From positions 3,906,001 through 3,970,000 of the forward strand of contig NZ_LT629772.1 of the NCBI RefSeq assembly GCF_900105385.1: a stretch of DNA of 64,000 bases. The letters are read 5' to 3'. Both the position numbers and the translations under genes were made by a program. The stretch's first letter is position 1, and each line of letters opens with the position of its first letter. This DNA is from Microlunatus soli (lineage in GTDB: Bacteria > Actinomycetota > Actinomycetes > Propionibacteriales > Propionibacteriaceae). Positions 35,178 to 58,276 of the stretch are shown one piece after another. The notes beneath the pieces were generated by a model that was not told where the DNA came from, did not search any database, and saw only the letters and a list, made by a program, of their open reading frames with translations.

Positions 35178-35341
35178 TTAGACGAGTAAGTCCCGGGCAT
35201 CGCACGCTGCGCCACGCTCAGAGCACCGCGGGCTGCGTTGCAGCCACTCGCGGTACGCCCGGTACCCCTTCGCGGCTGCGCCTTGCCCGCGGCACTCTGA
35301 GCGCGGCTCGCTTGCACGATCCCCTGGACTTACTCGTCTAG
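35178..35341. repeat. Palindromic element, copy A (164 bp)
   Basis: The terminal arms TAGACGAGTAAGTCC (35179-35193) and its exact reverse complement (35326-35340) sit inside TTAG and CTAG ends. Inner sequence stays imperfectly self-complementary to an apex at GGTACCCC. On the minus strand its core reads GCAAGGCG, then ACCGGGCGTA, then CAACGC, as in copies B and C. It begins three bases beyond the GNAT stop codon. Confidence 0.85.
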
Positions 35342-44016: not shown

Positions 44017-44110
44017 ACAAAGGGTCCTGAGCTTGTCGAAGGACCGCTGCCCCGAACATGGGGGAGCGGTCAAGGGTTATCAGCCCTTCGACGAGCTCAG
44101 GGCCCTTGTT
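44017..44110 (+). terminator. Nested inverted dispersed repeats forming a terminator after rplA
   Basis: ACAAAGGGTCCTGAGCTTGT continuing CGAAGG (44017-44042) pairs with CCCTTCGACGAGCTCAGGGC continuing CCTTGT (44084-44109). Inside it, ACCGCT (44043-44048) pairs with AGCGGT and CCCC with GGGG. The whole span folds on itself, followed by TTTGTTGT. This looks like two inverted copies of the dispersed repeat used as the rplKA terminator. Confidence 0.7.
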
Positions 44111-45910: not shown

Positions 45911-46076
45911 TTAGTGTCCTGCGCCCGACATCCGGCACACAATTCGAACGCCTGAAGCAGCAATCTGCAGCGTTGGCATCGGCTTACATACGCCCGGTAA
46001 GCGCACCTCTGCCGCCTTGCAGCTCACTACTTCAGACGCCCGACTTATGCACCGGATCTCGGGCGCAGGACACTAG
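45911..46076. repeat. Palindromic element, copy B (166 bp)
   Basis: Outer arms start TTAGTGTCCTGCGCCCGA on the left and end as its near complement followed by CTAG on the right; 25 of the first 30 bases pair. Inner CCTGAAGCAGCAATCTGC pairs with GCAGCTCACTACTTCAGA. The reverse-strand core GAGCTGCAAGGCGG, AGGTGCGC, CCAACGC, GCTTCAGGCG matches copy C nearly base for base. It ends 10 bp before the dGTPase ATG. Confidence 0.88.
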
Positions 46077-49341: not shown

Positions 49342-50537
49342 GAACCTCCCTCCAGCGGGATCGTTGCTCGGACGGTGAAACCACCCCGATCTCCCGGCCC
49401 GGCACGTAGCACCCCACCGAGCGCACGGACCCGCTCACGCATCCCGACCAGGCCCTGACCCGGTGCACGCTCCGGGCCGTCCACCGGGCCGGTCCCGTCA
49501 TCGGCGATCATGATCGACAGGTTGCCGGCGTCGGTCTCGACCGTGATCGCCGCGTGCCGGGCGCCGGCATGCCGGACGATGTTGGTGAGTCCCTCCTGGA
49601 TGATCCGGTAGCCCGCGACGTCGACCTCGCGGCGCAGCTGCGACGGTTCGATCGTGATCATGGTGTCGACCTCGACGCCGGACGCGAGCACCGGTGCGAC
49701 CAGCTCGTCCAGCTGTCGTAGCGACATCGTGCTCGGCTCCGCGGCGTCGGAGCGCAGTAGTCGCACCATCGTCCGGACCTCGGAGAGTGTATGACTGCTG
49801 GCATCACGGATCTGGCTGATCGCCGCGGCGGCTGCACCGTCGTCGACCCCGACGGATTCGGCGGCCACGCCGGCATGCAGCGAGATCACCGACATGGTGT
49901 GTCCGACGGTGTCGTGCAGATCGCGGGACAGTCGCTCGCGATCGGTCTGGATCCGGATCCGCGCCCGGGCGTCGGCCTGATCGGCGGTCAGTTGATTGAT
50001 CACCTGCTGCTGGGCCGCCTGCCGCCGACGAAGTCGCATCGTGCTGCCGAGCGCGATCGCCATCGCGATCAGAGCGAGGTTGGAAACGGTCTCGTAGCCG
50101 ATCAGCATGCCGATCGACGCTCCGTTGTGGAGTCGGAAGAACATCGAAACCGCGAAGTCCACCGCACCGGCACCGATGGCCCAGCCGACCAGGCCCGCGT
50201 CGGCTGCGGCGAACAGTGCGGCGACGACGGGAACGGCAACACCGATCGGCGGATAGTCCAGGGTGTAGTAACCGAAGACGCCGAGCACTGTCATGATCAA
50301 CATCGTCCGAGGGAACCGGCGTCGGAACAGGATCAGCACCCCGAAGCCGGCGGCGAAGACGTAGGCCCAGCCATCCGGTGGCCGGTTGCCACCCTGGCCG
50401 GCGGCGATGATCAGCGCGATGGCGCACGCCACGGTGACGGCGACCAGGGCGTCCAGCACCCAGGCCGGCACATCCCGTTCGGAGCCGGGACGCACGGCAC
50501 CGGAGACTGCAGTGCGCCGTCGCCGCTGTGCTGCCAT
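49338..50537 (-). CDS. Sensor histidine kinase (HisKA_3)
   Basis: This 399-residue kinase has about five N-terminal membrane helices (VLDALVAVTVACAIALIIAA onward), a coiled linker, phospho-acceptor SRDLHDTVGHTMSVISLH (His about 209) and a HATPase with IIQEGLTNIVRHAG and GQGLVGMRERVRALGG. The architecture is the usual partner of NarL-type regulators. It is divergent from a small membrane protein gene at 50695. Confidence 0.9.
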   Translation of the reverse strand: MAAQRRRRTAVSGAVRPGSERDVPAWVLDALVAVTVACAIALIIAAGQGGNRPPDGWAYVFAAGFGVLILFRRRFPRTMLIMTVLGVFGYYTLDYPPIGVAVPVVAALFAAADAGLVGWAIGAGAVDFAVSMFFRLHNGASIGMLIGYETVSNLALIAMAIALGSTMRLRRRQAAQQQVINQLTADQADARARIRIQTDRERLSRDLHDTVGHTMSVISLHAGVAAESVGVDDGAAAAAISQIRDASSHTLSEVRTMVRLLRSDAAEPSTMSLRQLDELVAPVLASGVEVDTMITIEPSQLRREVDVAGYRIIQEGLTNIVRHAGARHAAITVETDAGNLSIMIADDGTGPVDGPERAPGQGLVGMRERVRALGGVLRAGPGDRGGFTVRATIPLEGGS

Positions 50538-50694
50538 GGCAAGCAGTCTAGAAGCATGGTCGGCGCCGGACCCCGGAGTCGACTACGGGAGACCCGACGG
50601 TCGATTCCTGACGACATCCCGTGCAGCGGATCGCGACCGACGCCGAGACCGGGGACGGATGGCTGTGCCAGAACGGAAACCTACCGTCGAAGGC

Positions 50695-51099
50695 ATGAAG
50701 AAGATCACTACTCTGAACTGGTTCCTGATCACCGCTCTCGGTGGTTTGGCACTCGTCCGACCGTTGGTCCGCATTGTCGAGGACCAGGCGAATCTCACCC
50801 ACCACGCGGCCTCGTCGATCGTGATCACGATCGGCATCTCGATCGTCTGGATCGCGGTCGTCGGCCTGTCCCGGGTTGCTGAGCCGGTGCTCACCCTGCT
50901 GTTCACCGGGTTGGCGTACGGCGTGCTGTCGAGCATTCTCAGCGCCATCCTGTCGCCGATCCTGCTCGGTCACCTGGACGGCCCGTTGGCCAACCCGGTA
51001 CGGCTGCTGCCCGCGCTGGCGATCAACGCGATCTGGGGACTGCTGGCGGGCGCGATCGCGCTCGGGCTGCGGCAGGTCCGACGCGTGCGATCCGACTAG
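50695..51099 (+). CDS. Small four-helix membrane protein, unknown function
   Basis: These 134 residues are made of four hydrophobic segments (WFLITALGGLALVRPLV, IVITIGISIVWIAVVGL, VLTLLFTGLAYGVLSSI, LLPALAINAIWGLLAGAIAL) and a basic tail RQVRRVRSD. I do not recognise the family beyond similarity to small actinobacterial integral membrane proteins. ATG 50695 follows GAAGG; GTG 50668 is an alternative. Its TAG stop (51097-51099) is made by the terminal CTAG of palindromic element C, so the last codons are set by the element's insertion point. Confidence 0.65.
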   Translation: MKKITTLNWFLITALGGLALVRPLVRIVEDQANLTHHAASSIVITIGISIVWIAVVGLSRVAEPVLTLLFTGLAYGVLSSILSAILSPILLGHLDGPLANPVRLLPALAINAIWGLLAGAIALGLRQVRRVRSD

Positions 51100-51257
51100 T
51101 GGCGCGCGTCATGAATTCGTGGAGGCAGTCGGCGGCTGAAGTGGTGAGCTGCAAGGCGGAGGAGGTGCGCATGCCGAGGCATGTAATCCGACGACAACGC
51201 AGCAGATCGCCGCTTCAGGCGTCGAATGGCCAACGAATTTATGACGCGCCACACTAG
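51096..51257. repeat. Palindromic element, copy C (162 bp)
   Basis: Ends are CTAG and CTAG. The 25-base outer arms (51096-51120 and 51233-51257) pair at 22 positions: GCGCGTCAT and AATTCGT blocks are exact. Then GGCTGAAGTGGTGAGCTGC pairs imperfectly with its partner, and the apex ATGCC-GA-GGCAT is a perfect hairpin. The core GAGCTGCAAGGCGG, AGGTGCGC, CAACGC, GCTTCAGGCG is shared with copy B. It fills the gap between two convergent stop codons. Confidence 0.9.
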
Positions 51258-56053: not shown

Positions 56054-56116
56054 GCGATATATCAAGGTTGCGCACGTTCCAGCACCGCGGGAACGTGTCC
56101 AACCTTGATATATCGC
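56054..56116. repeat. 63-bp near-perfect palindrome with GATATATC ends
   Basis: GCGATATATCAAGGTTG (56054-56070) pairs perfectly with 56100-56116. After a two-base mismatch, CACGTTCC (56073-56080) pairs with GGAACGTG (56090-56097), leaving a nine-base loop. It lies 25 bp beyond the GNAT stop, before the binding-protein gene. It could be a terminator or a separate mobile palindrome; it is AT-rich at its ends, unlike its surroundings. Confidence 0.8.
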
Positions 56117-56660: not shown

Positions 56661-56781
56661 TCCTGAGCCTGTCGAAGGGCAGGTAACGCACAAAGGGCCC
56701 TGAGCCGGTCGAAGGGCTGGTGATCCGCACCCAGCCCGGTGGCTGGGGCACGGTCCTTCGACAGGCTCAGGACCCTTTGGT
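56661..56781. repeat. Three dispersed TGTCGAAGG repeats, two direct and one inverted
   Basis: Direct copies TCCTGAGCCTGTCGAAGGGC (56661-56680) and GGGCCCTGAGCCGGTCGAAG (56695-56714) face an inverted copy GTCCTTCGACAGGCTCAGGA (56753-56772) followed by CCCTTT. CAAAGGG before the second copy pairs with CCCTTTG after the third, giving a long nested hairpin 16 bp past the NlpC stop, a likely terminator. Confidence 0.7.
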
Positions 56782-57678: not shown

Positions 57679-58020
57679 GTATTGCTCCCCTCGGTAGATC
57701 GCACCGCGGGGCCCGAGAAACCCTTCGCGATGGTGACCCGGCATCCCGACGCCGACGGTCACGATCGGGGACGTTATCTTTTCGAGATAATCGGAGCAAA
57801 CGCTCTCCGGGAAACCCCTCTATTCCTGATCTGCTCCGAGGTATTCGTTGAGCTGAACCCAAGAAATTGACCCCGCGCTTATCCGTGGCTTGTCGAACAG
57901 TGCGCATTCCGACCCCTTGCCTCACCGTTGGGTCACGGCCGGGTCACGTCCGCGTGTGTCGTCGTCCGCCGGCGTAGCTTCGAGCGTCCGGCAACCAGCA
58001 AGGTCCGGGTCCCTGGACCT
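57679..58020. other. Leader and upstream region of the NlpC/P60 gene, no gene recognised
   Basis: This gap holds no convincing coding frame. It contains short AT-rich blocks (TTATCTTTTCGAGATAAT around 57775-57792, a dyad with arms TTATCT and AGATAA) that could be promoter or operator. A long transcribed leader for the NlpC gene is possible. I looked for a cyclic-di-AMP riboswitch and did not find its conserved blocks. Confidence 0.4.
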
Positions 58021-58276
58021 GGCCCGGGGCGATATGGGAACACGTACTGCGATGTGTCCCGGAGCGAGTGCTGGTCCGGGGCGATTTGCGCTCACGTGTT
58101 GCGATGTGTCCGGGGTGGCTGCTGGTCCGGGGCGATTTGCGCTCACGTGTTGCGATGTGTCCGGGGTGGCTGCTGGTCCGGGACGATATGGGAACACGTA
58201 CTGCGATGTGTCCCGGGTTGGCGTCGGTGCGGGGGTTATACGGAAACACGTACTGCGATGTGGCCGGGATGTGCGG
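58021..58276. repeat. Tandem array of five 51-bp repeats
   Basis: Units start at 58021, 58073, 58124, 58175 and 58226. Each reads GGTCCGGGGCGAT, then a variable 14-base block, then TGCGATGTGTCC. Units 1, 4 and 5 carry the GGAACACGTAC type; units 2 and 3, identical to each other, carry GCGCTCACGTGT. 51 is a multiple of three, so all frames look open, but no start or family resemblance supports coding. Confidence 0.85.

Follow-up and report, generated by a model that had tools for sequence, protein, structure and literature searches.

The three palindromes found in the window (the whole 64,000-nucleotide stretch of Microlunatus soli DNA analysed here) are probably miniature inverted-repeat transposable elements (MITEs) that are moved in trans by transposases targeting CTAG, with an enzyme of the IS630 family as the most likely mover in their own genus. 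A MITE of this kind would carry no gene of its own, and its outer arms would be the terminal inverted repeats (TIRs) recognised by a transposase encoded elsewhere. That transposase would cut at the ends and insert the element at CTAG; the duplicated target would be TA for the IS630 family and, in agreement with the data, CTAG for the IS5-type elements. The partner would most likely be an IS630-family transposase in the genus of the window, and in Streptomycetaceae the ends on similar cores are of the IS5 family. Members of the IS630 family insert into TA, which is duplicated (PMC2170065), and a preference for TA within CTAG is the topic of a paper named in the reference list of the same source (PMC2170065). 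Because one and the same inverted repeat is required in each arm, the two pair in every copy whatever their sequence; arms that are best read as TIRs therefore need no RNA function to explain their pairing. Element ends are shared with an IS5-family insertion sequence and with a decayed IS630 copy in G009, a genome of the same genus. Trans-mobilisation by IS630 is presumably active in the genome of the window (G000, 6.73 Mb), and the way in which the arms stay matched, together with any role for the core, is likewise something that we infer.

All three palindromes described by the sequence-only reading could be located (Table 1). Their lengths of 162–166 bp and their YTAG/CTAG ends stand as described, but the supposedly shared core is common to copies B and C and only loosely to copy A, the exact word GAGCTGCAAGGCGG being present in B and C only. 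The description of the arms as unrelated was overstated for B and C, both of which start TAGTG, and several arm types recur across G000. Within copy C, the left and right arms differ at three of the 16 nt inside the CTAG, and an ORF at positions 50386–51099 has as its stop codon the TAG at 51097–51099, inside the left end of the element. The CCTTCGACAGGCTCAGG-type inverted repeat listed in Table 1 also directly adjoins element ends in other genomes (beside L136 and L148).

Table 1. Palindromic elements, their parts and other repeats of the window, with solitary end remnants from two genomes
Feature	Position or locus	Strand	Remarks
Copy C, whole element, CTAG to CTAG	51096–51257	+	162 bp
Copy C, left outer arm with CTAG	51096–51119	+	CTAGTG type; putative TIR
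Copy C, core word GAGCTGCAAGGCGG	51146–51159	+	exact word
Copy C, second core block CGACGACAACGC	51189–51200	+	from sequence
Copy C, right outer arm with CTAG	51234–51257	+	inverted repeat of left arm
Copy B	45911–46076	-	166 bp; core word as in C; TTAG left, CTAG right
Copy A	35178–35341	-	164 bp; related but different core type; TTAG left, CTAG right
Inverted repeat, CCTTCGACAGGCTCAGG type	44018–44046 and 56751–56779		
Tandem repeat	58007–58264		51–52 bp unit, five copies
Separate hairpin	56054–56116		arms 30 bp, 90% complementary, 3 nt spacing
Solitary left-end remnants	L564, L565, L566, L568, L569, L574, L581, L583 (G009); L587 (G000)		CTAG on both sides

That the palindromes are real and multi-copy is borne out by G000 as a whole, where GAGCTGCAAGGCGG occurs at 16 exact places, all inside such elements; places with one mismatch number five, one an element (L020) and four due to chance. 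A covariance model search, the check that the sequence-only reading had proposed, returned further matches both here and in relatives. The model was built on 24 cores from G000, the three window copies among them, and gave 52 matches in that genome at E ≤ 1 and 39 at E ≤ 1e-3, of which 24 are training copies. Since this first structure, drawn across mixed core types, has only 12 base pairs, the model (R1) leans on sequence. Matches at E ≤ 1e-3 were obtained in 23 of 57 related genomes and, within the genus, in 10 of 20 including G000; in this comparison G000 has 37 element matches, G006 7, G009 16, G037 34 and G051 9. The family is also present in named Nocardioides, Kribbella, Microlunatus, Streptomyces, Kitasatospora, Actinomadura and Frankia genomes. 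When the window and a further 800 kb were surveyed by rule for CTAG-like ends with inverted 16-nt arms 30–260 bp apart, there were eight matches, all 162–168 bp long, against none for a direct-repeat control; because some stretches had been picked for known copies, and because copies with decayed ends inside them were missed (L001, L011 and L012, for example), the survey informs length and not density. Scanning the window against Rfam 15 returned three tRNAs only, with no family match on the palindromes at the gathering cut-off and nothing near that cut-off over copies A and C. Among the titles listed in a literature search none described the family, which is not proof of its being unpublished, and the main text of a 2024 review of prokaryotic MITEs contains no term match for Streptomyces, Actino-, IS630 or CTAG (PMC10969869).

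The 24 copies measured in G000 are hairpins of 156–168 bp (22 of them 162–168 bp) built to a single plan: the ends are CTAG-like, the outer arms vary, and there is an inner stem and an asymmetric core that is conserved. With element ends placed by eye, the motif GCAAGG lies 54–57 nt from the left end in all 24 copies and 107–112 nt from the right end in 23, the exception being L011 with 99 nt. CTAG is found on both sides of 10 of the 24 and TA on both sides of 13; the remaining copies have altered tetranucleotides, some of which are not direct repeats (CTAG...CGAG, CTCG...CGAG). Two pairs of adjacent copies share one CTAG (L010/L042 and L016/L033), and in L001 the outer arms are unlike each other. 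Core types T2, T3 and A follow the same plan as T1, the type in which GCAAGGCGGAGGAGG is present in 13 of 17 copies and CGACGACAACGC in 7 of 17; copy C has both. Short, multi-copy, with inverted arms and, judged from their size, no gene of their own, the palindromes have the properties of MITEs. One further locus, L072 (positions 1946026–1946112 of G000), is an apparent hybrid, its left half being of type T1 and its right half of type T2. A further end type, CTAGGGAAGCACTGAT..., is seen at L074 of G000 and in the right flank of L009, partly adjoining a T1 copy with the CTAG in common.

Pairing between the arms is strongly preserved. Across the 17 T1 copies, 94.2% of cells pair (shuffled mean 83.9%) and 29 of 59 pairs show changes on both sides (shuffled mean 16.8); on each of five measures of covariation, none of 500 shuffles reaches the observed value, and slid controls are also exceeded. 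The claim that pairing is conserved rather than sequence is right for the outer arms alone; in the core the sequence itself is conserved, including that of the asymmetric internal loops. Both the covariation and the conserved loops would suit a structured non-coding RNA, the other possibility raised by the sequence-only reading, in which a transcribed hairpin would bind a partner through its internal loops and dispersal would be secondary. We think this unlikely. Of the 29 pairs with changes in both partners, 22 fall in the outer helix, a pattern that the inverted repeats of transposon ends predict; TIR arms would thus already account for the pairing. There are also miniature CTAG-bounded forms that lack the core, and the Rfam scan described above assigned the palindromes to no family at its cut-off.

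The reading of the palindromes as MITEs draws on their many copies and on the settings in which near-identical copies are found. In G054, L142–L144 are identical as printed, L145 differs from them in one arm and L145–L147 are close relatives; all of L142–L147 stand in different flanks, and the flanks of the intact copies begin at CTAG. Of eleven copies in G009, ten are near-identical and one (L136) differs in having an unrelated left part, and Kitasatospora copies likewise lie in different flanks with CTAG borders. An empty site is provided by Streptomyces plasmids, where CTAG plus 186 bp in L519 corresponds to a single CTAG in L604, L605 and L606, the right tetranucleotide of the filled site being CTGG. 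Empty sites that keep one CTAG had been anticipated, and the expectation is borne out at this one locus, with three empty sites against one filled, in a group that bears IS5-type ends. A second candidate (L607 against L609) was dropped, the difference exceeding one element. Together with the CTAG boundaries and with the ends shared with insertion sequences, these observations support the proposal of a non-autonomous mobile palindrome.

G004, G009, G054 and Streptomyces sp. MJM8645 contain core-less forms of about 20–86 bp bounded by CTAG. G009 additionally contains eight left-end remnants that read CTAG-TGTCG(T/C)GCGTCC-CTAG and lie in unrelated flanks; such remnants may be footprints of the hairpins, left by deletion between CTAG repeats. 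Nested insertion is a doubtful origin for the internal CTAG of the G009 arms, since TCAA stands at that place in a similar arm of G004 (L594).

CTAG itself is scarce: trinucleotides predict about 57 occurrences in the window, where there are 19, and 669 in 800 kb of G000, where there are 159. By a rough ORF rule, the stop TAG of a long ORF of high GC3 adjoins 6 of 24 elements, compared with 4 of the 15 other CTAGs of the window; two more elements adjoin the stops of low-GC3 ORFs, one of which (at L010) crosses a neighbouring element. As the other CTAGs of the window give 4 of 15, the association with stop codons follows from CTAG targeting, and we reject it as an independent property of the elements. 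With CTAG rare and often located at stop codons, insertion can spare the upstream gene, as at copy C.

What moves the elements can be approached through their ends, and here the IS5-type link suggested by the sequence-only reading holds for Streptomycetaceae, where similar cores bear IS5-family ends (CTAGGGCGTGTC...). In Kitasatospora xanthocidica, four contigs end inside a repeat that starts CTAAGGCGTGTCTGACAA (three contigs) or CTAGGGCGCGTCTGACAA (one), and the palindromes start CTAGGGCGTGTCTGACAATTC; as expected of IS5-derived arms, the contig ends (L457–L460) match the arms of L421 and others. This repeat end is present in 21 plasmid records, an IS5 family transposase being annotated in 8 of 20 among the matches listed, and pieces of one such plasmid record match NF033580 above the cut-off. 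L486 is flanked by CTAG at either end and has a 20-nt inverted repeat with one mismatch; the second end of L485 is unrecognised, with seven mismatches. In relatives, inverted repeats of the CTAGGGCGTGT type flank 9 of 11 PF13340 loci examined, and G004, G019 and G054 contain PF13340 genes alongside elements. It might be supposed from this true-looking link that an IS5-family transposase also moved the copies in G000, but we regard that as highly improbable: PF13340 has no matches in G000, G006, G009, G037 or G051, all of which carry elements, PF13359 is absent from the same five genomes, and the arms of G000 are CTAGTG and not CTAGGG. Transposases with either domain are accordingly rejected as partners in G000.

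In the genus of the window, the ends instead resemble the inverted repeats of the IS630 family. Fetched loci were scanned for CTAG-ended inverted repeats 0.6–2.6 kb apart, a procedure that also recovered IS5 ends and pairs of palindromes. L512, from a genome of the same order (G056), has CTAGTG ends without mismatch over 18 positions and encodes a transposase of the IS630 family (NF033545, E 6.4e-74). Six more IS630 records were compared: L610–L613 have CTAGTG ends with 0–1 mismatches of 18, and the other two match poorly (seven mismatches in L614, four in L615). The first bases of L612 are CTAGTGTGATGCGCCAGAAATCC, those of T1 arms, L008 for example, CTAGTGTCCTGCACCCGAAATCC. Within the genus, L567 of G009 was fetched for its match to a 15-base arm pattern, and because it was selected by that pattern the match alone is not independent. 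Just inside the arm-like end is a decayed IS630 gene in the right direction (about 50% identity by tblastn), with its frame broken and its front part missing; a CACTAG end follows 884 bp further on, the right and left ends differing at 6 of 20 places, and beyond the 15-base pattern 11 of the next 16 bases agree by eye with the G009 palindromes. Neither the window nor 800 kb (12%) of the 6.73 Mb of G000 yielded an IS630 gene.

Several arms were also considered as ends of insertion sequences. In G000, CCTGCACCCGAAATC has eight places, seven in elements and one due to chance, and was rejected; so was TAGTGTCCYG, which has 16 places there, nine in elements and seven without a paired end or transposase. 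The arm TCCTGTCAGGTTGATCCG has matches in 15 of 57 genomes, and the one G004 place inspected is a core-less element. A G054 arm has ten places across 38 genomes, nine in G054 elements and one in G075, and a 45-nt Nocardioides arm was rejected after comparison with plasmids, its best match being a Dietzia place without a paired end.

Similar cores are found under different ends. A scan of named genomes with a core word absent from T1 yielded at least 120 stretches, and 114 of those listed were scored. Among these 114, 22 have CTAGTG-type and six CTAGGG-type ends on both sides, 53 have no end recognisable by the rule applied (decayed copies and chance matches), one is mixed and the rest are partial. 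Both GGAGGAGG and CGACGACAACGC are held by 11 of the 16 TAGGG-type stretches listed and by none of the 37 TAGTG-type stretches listed, although copy C and L142 of G054 hold both. G000 or G054 and Streptomycetaceae thus plainly have a core in common, be it by descent, horizontal spread or convergence; in the named TAGTG set, for which the selecting word is one missing from T1, the resemblance is looser. A core of another sort altogether, GCGTCCTCGTACTGGGCCGTACTTGGACG..., lies between TAGGGCGTGT-type arms in Streptomyces sp. MJM8645 (L432, L444 and L448), and ends and cores are therefore exchangeable parts. A third kind of end (CTAAGAGC... / CTAAGAGG...) accompanies the same core word at L207 and L296 (Frankia) and at L260 (Myceligenerans).

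Simple MITE spread does not account for the conservation of the core between genera. A more tentative proposal, which we entertain without favouring it, is that what persists is the conserved core and not the ends: a hairpin of some 90 nt, its internal loops fixed, which two or more unrelated families of CTAG-targeting transposases would have spread through Actinomycetota. Inverted repeats would then change by exchange of one arm, L001 looking like an intermediate, and the change would be copied to the other arm in a folded strand; the core might be a host-factor or RNA element that favours hitchhiking, or a device that spaces the two ends. The persistence of the length and of the asymmetric core under unrelated ends might reflect spacing for synapsis, a host factor, an RNA function or protection of the palindrome from deletion. 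If it is true that the core passes between IS630-type and IS5-type ends, this would be a testable case of a non-autonomous element changing its transposase. More generally, this repeat family, widespread among actinobacteria of soil and among those that produce antibiotics, has no match in Rfam 15, and strong covariation predicted by transposon biology alone calls for caution in covariance-based RNA discovery.

Among described systems, the REP/BIME sequences with their RAYT (TnpA-REP) partner are similar in being intergenic palindromes beside a conserved tetranucleotide. Elements of that sort, moved as single strands by a Y1 (HUH, RAYT) transposase that recognises hairpin and tetranucleotide, would look much alike if inserted net-neutrally next to CTAG, and REPs use a comparable tetranucleotide, GTAG, on one side (PMC8266576). 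A REP-like origin is nevertheless very unlikely, given that REPs are only 20–50 nt long (PMC8266576), that the palindromes are mostly 162–168 bp with CTAG-like sequences on both sides, and that their ends match inverted repeats of the DDE families IS630 and IS5. The Correia/NEMIS elements of Neisseria are MITEs of 107 or 155 bp with terminal TA and stem-loop transcripts; by description they differ in having 24-bp TIRs and, in the longer form, an IHF site (PMC2229807). The nearest described case is RUP of Streptococcus pneumoniae, associated with IS630-Spn1 (PMC2229807). Like the palindromes, RUP is dispersed, geneless, shorter than 200 bp and able to form a long stem-loop, with IS630-like ends and a TA target (PMC2229807), which for the palindromes is a putative one. 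RUP, however, is 107 bp long, has 9-bp TIRs and is described from one species (PMC2229807), whereas the palindromes are mostly 162–168 bp and near-fully palindromic, with a conserved asymmetric core and two kinds of end, and are found in several actinobacterial genera.
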